The notes beneath the pieces were generated by a model. That model had not been told where the DNA came from. It did not search any database and saw nothing but the letters and a program-made list of their open reading frames with translations. From Aotearoamyces nothofagi (lineage: Eukaryota > Ascomycota > Leotiomycetes > Leotiales > Tympanidaceae): a stretch of DNA of 64,000 bases. Of this stretch, positions 1 through 42,249 are shown one piece after another. Each line of letters starts with the position of its first letter. Positions within the stretch are counted from its first letter, which is position 1. The stretch lies in NCBI GenBank assembly GCA_015345905.1, contig JADDTR010000012.1:70578-134577 (forward strand), in the 5' to 3' direction. The position numbers and the translations under genes are program-made.

Positions 1-1900
1 TCGTGGTATCAACAACACAACTCCGAACCTGTCATGTTTCCCAGACTCTTTCTCCAGATACAATTGGTATCTCCAAGCCGAAGCCGAAGGAATCCTGGGA
101 AGTTCCAAAGATTCCCTTACGATGAACTGGCAAAGATGGGGTGCTTTCGCAGACGGTTGTTCAGCAGCTACGGGCTTCCCAAACGATGGCAACAAAGAAG
201 TTCTAGGTCAACACATCAACACAACACCTGTTGTAGAGGACATGATCCAAATCATCGAACGCCACGGCGAATGGCGCAATCTCCAAGAAGGCCCCTCCTC
301 GCTGACCTTCGCCAAAACCGAGGAGAAGCTTATCTATTGGGGCTGGTCCTACGGCACCCTCCTCGGCGCAACCTTCGCCTCAATGTACCCAACTCGCATC
401 TCCCGCGCCGTTCTTGACGGCGTCGTCGACGCTGAAAACTACTACCACACAACTCCCTTCAGTAGCATCCTCGACGCCGACGCTATCCTCGACCGCTTCA
501 CAAGCTACTGCTCCATGGCGGGGCCTTCCGTGTGCCCATTCTACCACCCCTCCGGCCCCTCGGCAATCCTCAACGCGTACGAATCCATCCTCGACTCTCT
601 CTACAAATCCCCTCTCGCAGTGCCCTCGTCGCCCACCCGCGGTCCAGAAGTCGTCACCTGGAGCGACCTCATGCTCATAATCCGAATCGCAATGTACCAG
701 CCGGTCTTCTTCTTCCCTCTCTTTGCCACCGTCCTCGCCGATCTCGCAGCCGGAAACGGCACGGTCATGGCAGACTTCAAGCAGTCTGGAAGACACATCT
801 CGTGTCCGCTCGGCGAGCATGGCAATGGAGGGAATTGTAAGGGAGAACGACTCTATGGTCATGAAGATGATGCTACCAACGCCATTCTCTGCACAGATGC
901 AAAGGATCTAGGAATGGTGGATGAGGACGGATTTAGGGAGTATTGGATGCAGTTGAGGAATACGAGTAGTACGATTGGCGATTATTGGGCAGGCTTGAGG
1001 TTAGGCTGTGTGGGTTGGAAGACGGTTGCGAAGTGGAGGTTTGATGGTATGTTTTGTCCTATTTTCTTTTCTTGTCTCCCTTCTCTATTTATATGTTGTT
1101 CTCCTCTTCCTCCTCCTCCTCCTTCTATTTTCTTCCCATCCCTATTGGGTGCACTGCAATCAAAATTCTTACTTTCTCATTTATCACACACTACAGCCAA
1201 GACCCTCACTTCCCATCTATTACACTTTGCACTAACATTCTACAATTAAAAGGTCCATTCAGCGCAAACACATCCCATCCACTCCTTTGGATTGGAAATA
1301 CCCTCGATCCCGTCACGCCATTACGAAGGTAAGTTATTTTTCTTTCACTTTTTCTCCCGTCTTTCCTACCCCTCCGTTATCGCTACCTTGATCAGGGTCC
1401 AGTCTCTATACACTAACATATCGTAGTGCCATCAAAATGTCTAGCGCTTTTCCTGGTTCTGTTGTCCTACAACAGGATTCTGAAGGGGTAGGTTTTGCTG
1501 TTTTGGTTGGATTCTATTCCCTTTCTTTACTATGTGCTTGTGTAGTCTTGTTTGGTGCTGCGATAGAGACTTCCTTTTGGAAATCCTCCCCTAAATCCCC
1601 TATCCTCGCTTCACTCGCTTGCTGGACCAGTCCCCTTCCTAATCCAGTCTTTGATTTCCACAGCTGACAAACCCATCTTTAATACAGCATACATCCCTCA
1701 CTGCCCCCTCAGTCTGCAAAGCAAAAGCCGTCCGAAGATATTTCCAAACTGGCATTTTGCCTGATCCATCGACTGTCTGTGATGCTGAGCTGAGGCCTTT
1801 TGGGCTGAAAGGTAGAGACGACATTGAGACAATTACTGCAGATGATAGACTTTTGTTGGACGCTATGCTTGGCATGGTTGGGAAGATGAAGTTTAGATGA
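1..1900 (+). CDS. TAP-like alpha/beta hydrolase, S33 peptidase family (3' part)
   Basis: This is the C-terminal part of an alpha/beta-hydrolase serine peptidase of the tripeptidyl/prolyl aminopeptidase-like (TAP) group; the reading frame is open to the window edge, so the start lies outside. The nucleophile elbow GWSYG sits near 345-360. The C-terminal half carries the Asp region (GNTLDPVTPL) and the His region (GHTS), with the TAP-like C-terminal domain in between. Four exons are supported: 1-1046, 1253-1328, 1427-1487 and 1688-1900. Each junction has GT..AG and restores the frame; the His triad residue is the first codon of exon 4. Family members cleave N-terminal residues or act as general hydrolases, and many fungal ones are secreted. 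The signal peptide cannot be seen here. Substrate unknown. Confidence 0.85.
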
Positions 1901-2052: not shown

Positions 2053-2060
2053 TATATAAA
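2053..2060 (+). promoter_or_regulatory. TATA-like box
   Basis: A clean TATATAAA lies in the gap between the hydrolase and the small CaaX ORF. If it drives that ORF, the 5' leader would be about 360 nt, containing TCAATCAA repeats (2290-2305) and a pyrimidine-rich run just before the start. Long leaders are known for fungal pheromone-precursor genes, but the link is inference. Confidence 0.3.
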
Positions 2061-2445
2061 AGCAGCGCCCAGGTTCCGCACAAACATGGCCCAAGCCACA
2101 GCCTCGCGCCAATCACAACGGTCTACGTCATCGCTCCACTCCGCTCAGTCCAGCTCAGGATCTTGAAACCAGGGATGCTGGGGTGTGGGGATGTGAATAA
2201 ATACCTCCCAGCCTCCAGACCGAGCGAACGCTTCACAGGAACAAAACCATCAGCAATCCGCCATCCCGCACGGCAGAACAACGCCAGGCAATCAATCAAT
2301 CAATCAACCAAGCAACCGATCCCGATCCTGCAGTCGAAAACCAATCGCGCAGTGCGTATGCCCTACTCGCTCCCATGCCCATCCTCCTCCTTCCGCGTCT
2401 CATCTCCCCTACTCCCCTACTGACGGCTCCAAGGCCCGCATCGCA

Positions 2446-2607
2446 ATGTGCAGCGCCGCGCGCCCCTGCCTCGCGGACCGCAACGGCCCGGGCTCGTCGG
2501 CCGCGTCGTCGGTCGCGTCGTCGGTCGTGAAGCCTGCGGGCACAAAGTGTATCGAGTGCGATGGGTACGAGTGCTGCTGCATCCCTATTCCGTGCGTTGT
2601 CATGTAG
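2446..2607 (+). CDS. Small Cys-rich protein with C-terminal CaaX box (prenylated-peptide candidate)
   Basis: A 53-residue ORF starting at the first in-frame ATG after a frame that is open but ATG-less back to a stop at 2194. It has eight Cys (residues 2, 8, 35, 38, 43-45, 50), a Ser/Ala-rich middle, and ends CIECDGYECCCIPIPCVVM. The last four residues fit a CaaX box, and Met at X favours farnesylation. The Neurospora a-factor-type pheromone precursor is also very short and, as far as I recall, ends in the same CVVM, so a lipopeptide pheromone precursor is one reading. A small membrane-tethered palmitoylated/farnesylated protein is another. The Kozak -3 base is G. Longer ORFs overlap it in other frames and on the other strand, but they lack recognisable features. 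Not recognised with certainty. Confidence 0.45.
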   Translation: MCSAARPCLADRNGPGSSAASSVASSVVKPAGTKCIECDGYECCCIPIPCVVM

Positions 2608-2907: not shown

Positions 2908-3754
2908 TCAACTAAACTCTTTGTCCAACTCATCCCACACGGCCTTTTCTTCCGTGTCACTATCAGTCTCCTCTATATTTTCCTGTCCCTTGCCTGCTTC
3001 GTTGGCAAGCTTCGCCTGCCCCAACCCAGTCAATAGTTTTTCGACCTTGCCCTTCATCTTCTCAATGCCCTCAGTCTCGCTCTTAGACCTAGCCAATTGC
3101 GCCTCCATCATTAGTATCAAACTTTCTCTTGCTTGATGTGGTCGATATTCGTTCAGGAGATGGTGGAAATTTATAAACAGCGTCCTGAGATCTTGAATCT
3201 TTTCAGCATATTGCTCGGGGTTGGCGCTCATGATACCCATGAGTTCGAGAAAATTGAGGAGCAGAGATTTTGCTAGCCGTTTCAGGATCAAGGCTCGGTC
3301 AAAGTGCGATTCGGAACCATCGCTGCTGGGTGTACTGGGTGGTGTGTATAGCTGTGCGATCCCTTGTTCCGCCAATGAGGGTAGAGCCTCGTTGAGCTGT
3401 CGAGGTAGACTGTCAGCACATTTCAAGATCCGTTTCAAGCATACGTAATACTACCAACTAGACACTTACGTTATATACATCACCAAAGTTCCTATATATC
3501 CCTTCCGTAGGAGGCTCTGGCGGTTGAAGAAAGCGCAATTCGGGGGGAAGGTCAAAGAGCCTCAAGGGTGGCTTTGACTGCTTAGCCAAAGGCTGGCCAT
3601 CCCTGGGAGAGGATTTAGAAGACGAAGCTTTGAGGTCCTTCTCGGCACGTAGAGCAGCGATACGGTCGAGGTTCTCTGATGTAAAGTGTTGGTAGAAAGG
3701 TGGTGGACTAGGAAATGCAGCTGCGAGCGCGTTTGGCTGCTGCTGTTCGGTCAT
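2908..3754 (-). CDS. MED7: Mediator complex subunit 7
   Basis: This is a 257-residue MED7 homologue, part of the Mediator middle module that bridges transcription factors and RNA polymerase II in the nucleus. Exon 1 is 3754-3470 and exon 2 is 3396-2908, with one phase-0 intron (GTAAGT..CAG). The N-terminus has the Pro-rich segment typical of MED7 (FPSPPPFYQHFT near residue 14, then a PPxPP run ending at the YRNFG motif). The second exon gives the long helical region that dimerises with MED21, including NFLELMG and the HQARE motif. The C-terminus is acidic. An in-frame upstream extension exists (to 3871), but the ATG at 3754 gives the usual MED7 start and length. It is divergent from the PAP2 gene at 4092. 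Confidence 0.9.
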
Positions 3755-4091: not shown

Positions 4092-5154
4092 ATGCCTGTA
4101 CCGAATGGTCGACGTGATAGTGGCCTCGCCACCAAGTCAGGCTGGATCGGTTCAGTTGTACGGTTCTGGCAGAGAACGTACGCTCCAGATTATATGGGCT
4201 TGGTTCTCCTTGCGGTTGCATATATACTGGTATGTTGTTCCCAGTTTCGGGGAATACTATACCACCTGCCAACATCTACAGCTTGAGTTCCTTGTGGAAC
4301 CTTTTCACCGCATGTTCACATTGGACAATATCAACTTGCAATACCCACATGCGCTGATCGAGAGAGTACCACTTTGTAAGCTTCTTTCCTGAAAATTTGC
4401 TCCCTTCTAATAACTATCAGCTTGGCTCTTTCTTTATGCTGGTGGAATACCCCTGGTTGTGATGGTTATTTGGATTGCCGTTTCCAAATCCGCTTTGCAC
4501 AAGACCCACGTAACAGTATTAGGATTCTTGATTGGGTGACTATCGCTCCAAGTTATCAACGAAGTCAGTCTAACCCTCTGCAGGCTCTTATTGACCTCTT
4601 TCGTTACGGACCTCGTCAAGAACGCAGTGGGCAGGCCACGTCCGGATCTCATCTCAAGGTGCCAGCCTAGAGACGGAACTGCTCAGCATGCTCTTGTGAA
4701 TATTGACGTATGTACGCAAATTGATCATCATGTCCTTCAAGACGGCTGGAGAAGCTTTCCTAGTGGCCACTCTTCCTTCGCCTTCAGCGGATTAGGATTC
4801 CTCTCTCTTTTTCTTGCTGGGCAGATGCATATCTTTCGACCAGAAGGAGATCTCGCACGTGGACTATTAGCGCTTGCACCACTTTTGGTTGCAGCTCTAA
4901 TTGCCATTAGCAGGTGTGAAGATTATCGTCATGATGTTTATGATGTGACGTTTGGTTCAATCCTTGGTATGACGATTGCATATTGGTCTTATAGGAGATT
5001 CTTCCCTCGTCTCAGGAACAAGTTTTGCGATATACCGTATCCCTCGCCAGCTACTATTGAAGGATTCACAAAGGTCAAGGATGACGAGGAAGCTCAAAGG
5101 CATGGCGCGAGCGCATTTACATTGGGCGATCACGATAGTGGCGATGAAGTTTGA
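4092..5154 (+). CDS. PAP2-family lipid phosphate phosphatase (DPP1/LPP1-like)
   Basis: A 305-residue integral membrane phosphatase that dephosphorylates phosphatidate, diacylglycerol pyrophosphate or related lipids, probably in vacuole, Golgi or ER membrane. Exons: 4092-4229, 4282-4375, 4421-4535 and 4584-5154; all junctions are GT..AG and keep frame. The three PAP2 catalytic motifs are intact: K128-x6-R135P136, P175-S-G-H178 and S225-R226-x5-H232-x3-D236. Exon 2 carries the N-terminal lipid-phosphatase signature PFHRMFTLDN. Several hydrophobic segments fit a six-helix membrane protein. The length is close to yeast Dpp1 (about 290). DPP1 versus LPP1 identity cannot be decided from motifs. Confidence 0.92.
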
Positions 5155-5894: not shown

Positions 5895-6794
5895 CTATGC
5901 ATCTATGTCCTCTGCCTTCGCAAGATCATGCTCCTTAAGTAATGTCTGAATCTCGTCTGCGCCCCAGAGGTGGTGGTAGATTCGCCCGTCCTTGGTCTTG
6001 CCTACCGTGGCAAACTCAACTATTGATTGATTAGTCAATACTCCGTGAGGCTATTGGGTCTACTTACTCTTCTCGCTGCTTAGCTTGGTCGAATCCATCG
6101 TCTTGCTCAACACTTTGACCGCCATTCCACATGCCTCTTTCAAATCACAATCCTCCTTGTAATCTTGCTTCAACAAACTCTGCGCACTTGCGTTATTCGC
6201 ACCCACGCTCGTTGCCTTCCACCCTCCATAGTTTCCGCTGGGGTTGCTCTGATACAGCTGGAACTGTCTTTGTGGATCGTAACCGGCATAGATGAATGAA
6301 ACACCAAAAGGACGAAGGCCACCATGCTGCGTGTATCCTTGCTTCAGGTCACATAATCGTCGCACAAGTTGTTCGCAAGGAATATCTTCGTTGTAGGTTA
6401 GGAGATAGCGTTGTGCGGCTTGACGAGCATAATTGATGAGGATATTGGCGTCGGAGACCATGCCTGCTACTGCGCAGATCATGTTGCTTCAGTTTGTCAG
6501 CATCGGATAAGAAGAGAGAACCCATCACACATACTCGTTCAAGATGTACAGCTTCTCGGCAGATGTGTCTTGTTCTAGAAGCTTGCTGGTGACCTTCCTC
6601 TCAGCTGCGAGGACGATGCCATCCTTAGCTAAGATACCAATAGCGGTGCCTGCATGGGAGATAGCCTCCAGCGCATATTCGACTTGATACAGCCGTCCTT
6701 CTGGTGAGAAGATTGTCGTCTACAGATATGTTAGCTCCCCGTTTAGGATGTGTAGCTAGGTTGAGCCTACTCGGGAATCGTATCTCCTCGACAT
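5895..6794 (-). CDS. PRE9: 20S proteasome subunit alpha type 3 (PRE9, PSMA4 orthologue)
   Basis: A 250-residue alpha-ring subunit of the 20S proteasome core. Four exons: 6794-6771 (only eight codons), 6719-6535, 6486-6068 and 6019-5895, all GT..AG and frame-consistent. The N-terminus has the alpha-subunit signature ([20 protein letters not shown] followed by VEYA), including the YDSR/FSPEGR gate region. The body matches the alpha-3 subunit (ILLAKDG-like, [27 protein letters not shown]). Alpha-3 is the one alpha subunit dispensable in yeast, but it shapes the gate. Length agrees with yeast Pre9 (258). It shares an upstream region of about 320 bp with the divergent URN1-like gene. Confidence 0.95.
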
Positions 6795-7112: not shown

Positions 7113-9323
7113 ATGTTGAAGTCAACTCATAAGCCGTTAAACCAGCCAAATGCTGCTGCGGCTCTGCCAACAGGATGGACTGAGCACAAAGCTCCTACAG
7201 GTCAGTTCAAATTTCTCTTGTATATGTTGTTATGCTACACCCTTCATTCTTTCAAACTTTGAGAATCGACATATATCCATGTTACAAGCTTGATACTGTC
7301 GATTCGTGGTATAAAACAAGTACATAAAGATTGTTTAGGATGCAGTGTGTATTGTGGACGTGAACTCCTTCTCTTGTTTCTTAGGAGTTGTCCCCAAGCC
7401 GCGGTCCTCGCTGCCTTTGCTTGCTACTGCTTGCTTTCGTGTACGGAATGGACGTAGCCTATCTTTCCCGGGGACTGGTGGCTCCTAAAGATGCGAAACT
7501 CTCCTAGTGGGCTGTACCCACAATATGAATAATTCTTAGAGGATGTTCTTTTGCCTCCGCATTCCCGGGCATATTGTGCAGTAATATCACGAATCAGGGC
7601 GTGTTCGGATTCACATGTCTTCAGGTCACATGACCACATCCTGTTGATCCGATACTGACATATAATCTCAGGCCATACCTATTACTACAATGCAGCTACA
7701 AAACTGTCCACGTACACTCGACCAGTGGATCCAGTACAGGGTATTGCACCATCTAACCCCCACAGTGCTGCGCTCAGTCCCGTCATAAATTCTTCTCTTA
7801 GCTTTCTCGAATATCAATCCGTCAGAAGTATAGAACCAGGTGCTAGAGTACCTTCCGATAATTTTAATTCTCAACCCCAATTTGGAGCAGGCAGAGGAAG
7901 CCATCCAGTCCACCGAGGTGGTAGAGGTGGGTATGATCAGCAACGAGATCGTAGGCCACAACCCACGGATAGGCCCAAATCTAAACACGCAATACCGGGA
8001 TGTGAGCCATGGTTCCTTATCAACACCAAGCTCGGAAGAAGATTTGTGTATAATTCACAAAAGAATCAGAGTTATTGGCGGATACCGGAGAAACTGAAGG
8101 AAGGAATCCTTACCCTTGATCAACAGAGGATTAAGGAGAAAGCCGAGGCATTAACAGAGGAGAAAAGGTCTCTTCAGTTGCAATCAGCTCCAGGAGCAGC
8201 CGAAATGCCAGGATCTGTTAACAAGGAGGTAAATGCCAAGCTAGGAATTCAAGATGAAAATGAAGATAGTTCAGAGTACGAAGAAGTCGAAGTTACAGAT
8301 GACGAGGATGAAGAAAACGCTACTAAACGGCAACGTACCGAGGAGGCTGCTCCAGAGGAACCTGTTGAATTCAATGAAGATGACATTGCTTTCCAACTTG
8401 CTGCTATGGGTCAAGAATACGGTCTTGAGCAGGGCGAATATGACGATGGTAATATGGAGGACTGGGCAGAAGGAGCAGGGGGACTCGAGTTGTCAGAAGA
8501 TGATTCTGCAGCACTTTTCAAAGACCTACTGAACGATTCTGGCATAAACCCGTATAGTCCTTGGGACAAGCTTGTTGAAGACGGCAAGCTAGTCGATGAC
8601 ACGAGGTACACAGCTTTGACTAGCATGAAAGCGCGGAAAGAAGTTTGGGAGGAATGGACAAGAGAAAAAATAAAGTCCCTTCGAGAACAGCGCGCAAAAG
8701 AGGAGAAGAAGGACCCGAGTATACCATATTTAGCATTCTTACAACGGAACGGTACGCCGAAGCTTTACTGGCCAGAGTTCAAGCGCAAGTACAAGAAAGA
8801 GCCGGAGATGCGCGACCCTGGTCTATCCGATAAAGACCGTGAGAAGTGGTATCGAGAGCATATTAATCGATTGAAACTTGCACAATCGATCCTCAAATCC
8901 GACTTTTTAAACTTGCTGAAGAGTCAGCCAGCGTCTTTACTGAACAATTCGACCCTGCCGTCTCACTTGCCACCGGCTGTGCTTTCTAATATAAAATACA
9001 TTTCTCTCGATGCAACAACTCGAGATTCATTAGTCGAAGCTTTCATACCTACGTTGCCACCACCGCCAGAGGCTGCTAATGCCGAGGAAGATGAAGATGC
9101 TATTAGAGCGAGGATTGAGAGAGAACGTCGGCAAAAAGCGTTGGATGATCGACAGCGCCAGGTTGCTGAGGAAAAGCGTCGTCAAAGAAAGAATCTGGAA
9201 TTTGGAAAGGGTAGATTGCGGGAGGAAGAAGCTGAAATAGCGAGGGCCATGAATGTCAGCAAGAAAGGTTTAGCATCCCATCTAATACCTAGCGAAAAGG
9301 TAGATGCAGGCGGGCCATCGTAG
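7113..9323 (+). CDS. WW/FF-domain splicing protein (URN1/DRE4-like)
   Basis: A 579-residue protein with one N-terminal WW domain (about residues 19-52, GWTEHKAPTG across the intron into HTYYYNAATKLSTYTRP). It also has a second, WW-like segment (EPWFLINTKLGRRFVYN.. about 115-150), an acidic middle and FF-domain sequence (from about 318, KARKEVWEEWTREKI, and again beyond 390), then a charged coiled-coil tail. WW plus FF fits yeast Urn1 and fungal Dre4, which associate with the spliceosome; Prp40 would have more FF repeats. Exons are 7113-7200 and 7672-9323. The 471-nt intron is long for this window and splits the first WW domain; its branch site is TACTGAC. In WW1 the second signature Trp is Tyr. 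Confidence 0.85.
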
Positions 9324-41448: not shown

Positions 41449-42249
41449 GTTATAAGTACAACCTGGCTTGAAAGCTATTCCTTTCTATAGATTTTCAAGG
41501 TACGTCAAGAGTGTACCAAATCCAACAAAGGTATTGAGCTCTATTAGCCGTTAAACCCTAGCTCTAGACAAACCGATTTTAGAGTGATAGGCTGTTAAGA
41601 AGAAAAGAGAACTCTTCTCAGGGCCTCTACTATCGTCTCTATATTCAGTTACATTGCTGTAAAGAATCCAAATCTAGGTGCCGGAATATTAACCAACTTC
41701 CCTTTCAAGGGACGGTATACAAGTATACACTTTAAAAATGGAGACTAAGTAGAAGATGCTCTAATATAGCAGAGGTATATATATCTATATCGGTGAGATT
41801 TCTAATACTTATACTGCAGAGGTCCTCATTGGCCAATAGATTCTTGGTCAATTGGCCTGGTATCAAAAGCGACATTTTTTATATTTCCAAGGGGGGACCA
41901 GGGTAGAATTGTCTAAAATTCAGCTAGAAGGACCCTGGATACCTAGAGAATAGACTGATACATTGAAATTTCTAAAGCAAACAAGTTCTGGTTGTTGAAT
42001 ATTTTATTCTAGGAATTTGGATAATTATTCATTTTTCCGATAGAAAATTAATCCTAGGTCTCCAGCTAAATTTATAAGCTAGGGGCTTTGGCTTGTTAGA
42101 GCAGCTTTTATAGAAGGCTTCTCCTATATTAGTAGACCCTTTAAGGTATATAATTAGCTCCTAGGTATCTTTATAGTTGTCTTCCTACTAAACTAGGTAC
42201 TCAAAAGTGCTGTTACCTCTTCTAGAATCGATGACTCCCTTGACCTTAT

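Follow-up and report, generated by a model that had tools for sequence, protein, structure and literature searches.

Does a 53-codon open reading frame of Aotearoamyces nothofagi, with a Cys-rich tail and a CaaX box at its end, encode the precursor of an a-factor-type lipopeptide pheromone, a small lipidated protein that stays in the cell, or no protein at all? The frame lies in a 64-kb stretch of contig C12, hereafter called the window. By the account of PMC10569646, no a-factor gene had been identified before that study in any filamentous ascomycete other than Sordariomycetes. The original prediction had called the a-factor poorly described in Dothideomycetes. This agrees with the literature that we found, as the open-access papers searched contained no report of an a-factor gene in that class.

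A cysteine-rich frame with a CaaX end

Translation of the window on the plus strand gives MCSAARPCLADRNGPGSSAASSVASSVVKPAGTKCIECDGYECCCIPIPCVVM followed by a stop codon, with GYECCCIPIPCVVM as the C-terminus (Table 1). The position, length, Cys-rich character and CaaX end given in the original prediction were thus reproduced. The frame is also hidden under others, as had been noted, being overlapped by plus-strand ORFs at 2375-2530 and 2561-2707 and by the antisense ORF of Table 1. Six of the eight cysteines of the peptide fall within its last 20 residues, and its Ser/Ala/Val part is encoded by a short GC-rich repeat. An a-factor precursor is expected to be short (<100 residues) and to carry a CaaX or CPaX box at the stop codon; here, 53 residues end in CVVM-stop.

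Table 1 Features of the candidate locus and its flanks, in positions of the window
Feature	Position	Strand	Basis or remark
Alpha/beta hydrolase gene (part of gene)	122-1246	+	
TATATAAA, possible TATA box	2053-2060	+	One of 5 occurrences on this strand in 64 kb
Possible 5' untranslated leader, rich in A+C (limits approximate)	2190-2351	+	Composition
Possible 5'-leader intron	2352-2433	+	Donor GTGCGT at 2352 or GTATGC at 2356, branch CTGAC at 2420, acceptor AAG ending at 2433; consensus match only
Antisense 64-aa ORF, main rival frame	2409-2603	-	Shares third codon positions with the plus-strand ORF; no Pfam match
Candidate CaaX lipopeptide precursor, 53-codon ORF	2446-2607	+	Translation (ATG at 2446, stop ending at 2607), rarity, single genome match
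Gly-Tyr (GY) near the C-terminus, codons 40-41	2563-2568	+	Translation; motif reported in the text of PMC10569646
Cys-Cys-Cys, codons 43-45, possible palmitoylation or metal-binding residues	2572-2580	+	Translation; putative role
CVVM, predicted farnesylation (CaaX) box, codons 50-53	2593-2604	+	Translation
Med7	2911-3450	-	
PAP2 phosphatase	4543-5151	+	
Proteasome subunit	6060-6482	-	

The genome (25.48 Mb, 55 contigs) holds one full match to the peptide. We attribute a second match, on contig C21 (E 0.21, 33% identity over residues 3-45), to chance. Searches of Pfam, PDB sequences and NCBIfam returned neither a family or structure match nor a homologue with a known membrane role, the latter counting against a retained membrane protein. 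Relatives were also absent from viral and prokaryotic contig collections, as judged by protein scans and degenerate C-terminal DNA patterns. This weighs against an a-factor-type precursor, although collections that hold viruses and prokaryotes say nothing about fungi. The C-terminal letters did not occur in open-access paper text.

How easily could such a frame arise by chance? Among the 515 ATG ORFs of 20-100 residues in the window, this ORF alone has a strict CaaX end (C[VILMAT][VILMA][MSQAC]; two ORFs with a looser box) and it alone has at least six Cys in the last 20 residues. We simulated 64-kb windows by Markov models (200 each at orders 1, 2 and 5), which were trained on the window alone and judged by criteria chosen after the peptide had been seen. 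They contained 0.59-0.73 CaaX ORFs each, so that a CaaX end by itself is unremarkable and a random origin gains some support. The same windows contained 0-0.005 ORFs ending in CVVM, 0.03-0.08 with at least six tail Cys and 0.005-0.01 with both a CaaX end and at least five tail Cys. An order-3 simulation of 912 Mb, likewise trained on the window and scaled to 25.5 Mb, predicted 11.1 ORFs of 45-64 residues with a CaaX-like end, of which 0.39 would carry GY among their last 20 residues and 0.084 at least five tail Cys. A 25% cut for S+T in this simulation was our own; the peptide misses it at 24.2%, and the resulting count (0) was not used. Unlike the CaaX end alone, its combination with a Cys-rich tail is not unremarkable, and the rarity of GY, Cys-rich tail and CVVM together argues against chance.

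The genome was then scanned for C[ATVIM][VIM]M-stop, a survey of boxes ending in M, with other last residues outside it. It returned 63 sites (36 with TAR, 27 with TGA), and the pattern read backwards as a control gave 24 with TAR and 4 with TGA. Nineteen of the 63 terminate ATG ORFs of 20-100 residues. Some of these are last exons, including those at L024 and L029, which match Ras, and at L040, which matches G-gamma. GY was present in the last 20 residues of two of the 19, namely the candidate and L058, the latter ending a 218-codon open frame; GY together with a Cys cluster was confined to the candidate. A Pfam scan of nine of the 15 frames open for more than 100 codons, plus L040, matched five of the ten (Sel1 repeat, MINDY deubiquitinase, Sec10, leucine-rich repeats and G-gamma). 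The genome scan for the box evidently works, because it recovered Ras-family, G-gamma, MINDY and Sel1-repeat ends, and CaaX proteins are known or have been proposed among proteins of these kinds. Prenylation is argued for in the text of PMC12561907 for CSR-3/Skt5, to which the Sel1-repeat protein of this genome is linked by protein kind only, and in PMC11847538 for Miy1, a MINDY-kind protein. The exocyst Sec10-like protein (L026, 1504-3015, minus strand) has a frame ending in GIGCVIM, a CaaX box.

Two other ORFs from the scan are small CaaX candidates in their own right, both starting with MC and both with no Pfam match. The first (L006, ending at 1515, plus strand) has 71 residues, is Cys-rich and ends in TTFCVVM; the second (L045, ending at 1501, minus strand) has 99 residues with Cys and His among them and ends in DVPCVVM. 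Relatedness to the 53-residue peptide was not detectable for either, as 200 and 44 of 500 shuffles, respectively, reached the score. At 34 of the 63 sites, the box ends neither an ATG ORF of at least 20 codons nor a long frame. Visual inspection of three of these 34 (GYCVVM on C32, L064; GNQWCTVM on C10, L031; CVVM on C45, L009) for a concealed last exon revealed none that was convincing.

Mating genes and known a-factor precursors

To place the candidate within the mating system of the fungus, we consider the genes found elsewhere in the genome. STE3 and STE2 are each represented by two adjacent matches, on C13 and C6, respectively, and we read each pair as a single gene with two or more exons. 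A Ste24-type protease match and an ICMT match are also present. A second ICMT match (L077, G000:C19:368188-368388, minus strand; 35.9 bits) contains four in-frame stops and possibly represents a decayed or intron-split methyltransferase. According to the text of an ABC-protein survey (PMC6071951), every fungus surveyed has one Ste6-like gene, Dothideomycetes included. The alpha-factor model PF04648, which also matches in two of 14 control genomes, gave no genome match above cut-off, and this counts against an a-factor-type reading.

An SLA2-like gene (I_LWEQ, ANTH) stands beside an HMG-box gene on C10 (L072, G000:C10:357500-367400; features at 338-2941 and 7774-8963). Two frames match halves of the HMG box, with 31.8 bits (cut-off 25.4) and 23.7 bits (below it), and are separated by an intron-like gap. 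This suggests that the gene is MAT1-2-1 and the locus probably MAT1-2. By the filamentous-ascomycete convention, as worded in PMC6562746, MAT1-2 is the a-factor-expressing type; if the HMG gene is MAT1-2-1, the strain would therefore belong to that type. For Aureobasidium, PMC4227064 describes homothallic MAT loci at 70-500 kb from SLA2, whereas the HMG gene described here adjoins SLA2. In the frame preceding the HMG box, an ANGxx unit is repeated 14 times in a row. Between SLA2 and the HMG gene, a MAT-alpha (PF04769) match of 25 bits, below the cut-off of 28.1 and with an in-frame TAA (L012, 1501-1701, minus strand), is perhaps a MAT1-1-1 remnant in a MAT1-2 strain.

The candidate itself lies between the alpha/beta hydrolase and Med7 genes. 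Several Sordariomycete a-factor genes, by contrast, adjoin those for cyanate lyase and EBP2 as reported in PMC3068285. Neither was found among the flanking genes compared here, which speaks against an a-factor-type gene; the literature found makes no claim of such synteny outside that class. Elsewhere in the window, an isolated fragment of eukaryotic LSU rRNA is present at 41462-41754 on the minus strand (model 1543-1841 of 3401, 143 bits). The GC content of that region is 38%, compared with 50% for the window, and it may be a decayed rDNA insertion.

Sordariomycete a-factor precursors, among them those of M. grisea (sequence given in PMC3068285), C. globosum and N. crassa (MFA-1), are small and without repeats, and each ends in a single CaaX box of the CVVM or CVIM type; the candidate shares all of these traits. 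However, the M. grisea precursor has 26 residues and one Cys, as opposed to 53 residues and eight Cys here (PMC3068285). The h-type precursor HPP1 of T. reesei, described in the same text, is likewise small with a terminal prenylation box, but it has three (L/I)GC(S/T)VM repeats and Kex2 sites, whereas the candidate has one box and no repeat, and so lacks the motif repeats that define the h-type.

The closest likeness is to the Leotiomycete putative a-factor (the BCIN_13g03330 family), with which the peptide was compared by text description. In the text of PMC10569646, this family is reported from at least 111 species, with 45-64 residues, an S/T-rich N-terminus and GY near the C-terminus in 87 of those species. 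Its ends are mostly CTVM, with CVVM, CIVM, CTIL, CSIM and CSVM as further variants. The candidate falls within this description in size, in its GY (residues 40-41) and in its CVVM, although the commonest end in the family is CTVM. Serine and threonine make up eight of its residues 1-33 (24.2%), a proportion for which the text of PMC10569646 gives no numeric threshold, so that the agreement in this trait is loose. Hydrophobic N-termini and the lack of a signal peptide are named as marks of a-factor precursors in the text of PMC13037118; the mean hydropathy of the peptide is -0.29 over residues 1-16 and 0.49 over residues 17-33. No proven a-factor is known to carry an extra Cys beside the CaaX Cys, and the additional Cys of the candidate therefore count against this assignment.

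The processing route that we propose is modelled on yeast a-factor biology. Lacking a signal peptide, the precursor would be synthesized in the cytosol and farnesylated at Cys50. Rce1/Ste24-type proteases could then cut off VVM, and the ICMT (Ste14-type) enzyme would methylate the new end. Trimming of the front would leave a peptide of about 11 residues, GYECCCIPIPC-farnesyl-OMe, which a Ste6-type transporter may export and which STE3 may sense.

Together, the frame with its motif, its rarity in the window, the simulations and the genome scan, the fit to the description in PMC10569646, the STE3, STE2, Ste24-type and ICMT matches and the HMG gene beside SLA2 argue that the frame is a genuine small gene, present once in the genome, whose product is a CaaX peptide precursor of the a-factor type, comparable in kind to the Leotiomycete putative a-factor. 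We put the probability of this tentative reading at roughly 0.38. It is unlikely that the candidate is also the missing a-factor of the fungus's class, i.e., a Cys-rich lipopeptide pheromone precursor in an apparent MAT1-2 strain with STE3, which would extend the a-factor beyond Sordariomycetes and Leotiomycetes, with a mature GYECCCIPIPC that has extra Cys and perhaps a second lipid.

Export or retention of the lipidated product

The Leotiomycete family itself raises doubts about a role in mating, and these were voiced by the authors of PMC10569646. In the text of that paper, expression did not depend on mating type in three species and was undetectable in one of them, and where no functional STE3 is present, 11 of 12 species had kept the gene. 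It was strongly conserved in the Sclerotiniaceae and identical in 19 of 20 Botrytis species. These published data count against an a-factor-type precursor and in favour of a genuine small protein, farnesylated at Cys50, probably palmitoylated at Cys43-45 and kept on the inner face of a membrane, neither exported nor a pheromone. Alternatively, the CxxC and the Cys triplet of such a protein could bind metal.

Ras-type hypervariable ends are dual-lipid anchors with a Cys close to the CaaX Cys. The CCC of the candidate, located just upstream of its CaaX box, resembles them and favours retention, but the peptide has only 53 residues and lacks a GTPase or other Pfam domain. Also in favour of retention, N. 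crassa CSR-3 is described in the text of PMC12561907 as dependent on its CVVM end for function, with prenylation suggested rather than shown there. CSR-3 relies on the Cys of this box to be fully functional and, when calcium is low, to be recruited to fusion points, but not for its usual localization (PMC12561907). The two further small CaaX ORFs (71 and 99 residues) without Pfam match fit a retained protein as well. On the other side, the GY, the size and, more loosely, the serine-rich front fit the a-factor description of PMC10569646.

We therefore regard a retained membrane protein as possible, if doubtful. The evidence between export as a pheromone and retention is nearly balanced, with family resemblance favouring the former and the Cys cluster together with the Leotiomycete expression data (as given in PMC10569646) favouring the latter. 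The a-factor-type interpretation of the original prediction is thus partly supported: the Leotiomycete text description and the STE3, STE2, Ste24-type and ICMT matches speak for it, whereas the pheromone role is weakened by the published Leotiomycete data. The other option of that prediction, a small double-lipidated membrane protein, corresponds to the retained protein considered here.

Strand and coding signals

If the CaaX end is accidental, the frame would be open only by chance, in DNA rich in GC, and the gene, if there is one, would be the antisense ORF. GC occurs at codon positions 1, 2 and 3 of the candidate in 28, 34 and 46 of 53 codons. No such excess at the third position is seen in the sequence leading up to the ATG (19, 21 and 17 of 30, starting at 2356) or in that following the stop (24, 20 and 21 of 31, to 2700). 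The confinement of the excess to the ORF supports an a-factor-type gene, in a frame not chosen blind. The bias is significant (Fisher p 0.0003, again for a frame not chosen blind) and persists at p 0.005 when the Ser/Ala/Val stretch is left out, which argues against chance, even though the GC-rich repeat that encodes this stretch is itself in favour of it. Ranked by third-position bias among 246 ORFs of 40-100 residues, the candidate is 5th and the antisense ORF 8th. As their third positions are common to both, the bias does not separate the strands and lends support to the antisense ORF as well. The latter has GC1, GC2 and GC3 of 0.66, 0.53 and 0.84, with GC1 above GC2 as is more usual.

Codon usage is uninformative or slightly against the candidate as coding. 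It scores -0.034 without its stop, no better than the -0.032 of the antisense ORF's frame, and the best of the six frames is another antisense frame at 0.04. Base shuffles gave p 0.04 for the candidate, and a synonymous-codon comparison against local composition gave -9.3, which argues against coding.

The plus strand is nevertheless favoured, though not settled. TATA-like and intron-like features and the ATG align on it; the coding scores do not separate the strands, and upstream of the antisense ORF, too, there is an A+C-rich, leader-like stretch. An A+C content of at least 0.715 over 130 bases occurs at two places on the plus strand of the window, one of them the possible leader at 2190-2351, and at four on the minus strand, one of which runs from 2591 up. 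The intron-like segment has a pyrimidine content of 74% over 2356-2433. Its removal from 2352 or 2356 to 2433 would eliminate the ATGs at 2358 and 2375 and leave those at 2086, 2175 and 2191 in the leader, three upstream ATGs that weigh against an a-factor-type gene. The antisense ORF has no Pfam match. Overall, we regard a chance frame as rather improbable. Far less credible is a longer spliced protein of 116 residues from the ATG at 2175, whose frame would run stop-free into the CaaX ORF with an intron at 2352-2433, since its 59 extra codons resemble an A+C-rich leader with CAAT repeats, its unspliced frame has no Pfam match and the donor at 2356 breaks the frame.

With all readings that use the CaaX end taken together, a real gene at this position is quite probable. 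Its best reading is a farnesylated mini-protein of the Leotiomycete putative a-factor type, for which a pheromone function is possible but unproven. As a similarly built candidate from a further genome, the frame offers a concrete tblastn query across Dothideomycetes and Eurotiomycetes, and it also supplies a synthetic lipopeptide for testing on the STE3 receptor of A. nothofagi. If the gene proves to be conserved but unrelated to mating, it would point to a lipidated mini-protein that is widespread among fungi and whose role is still to be found.
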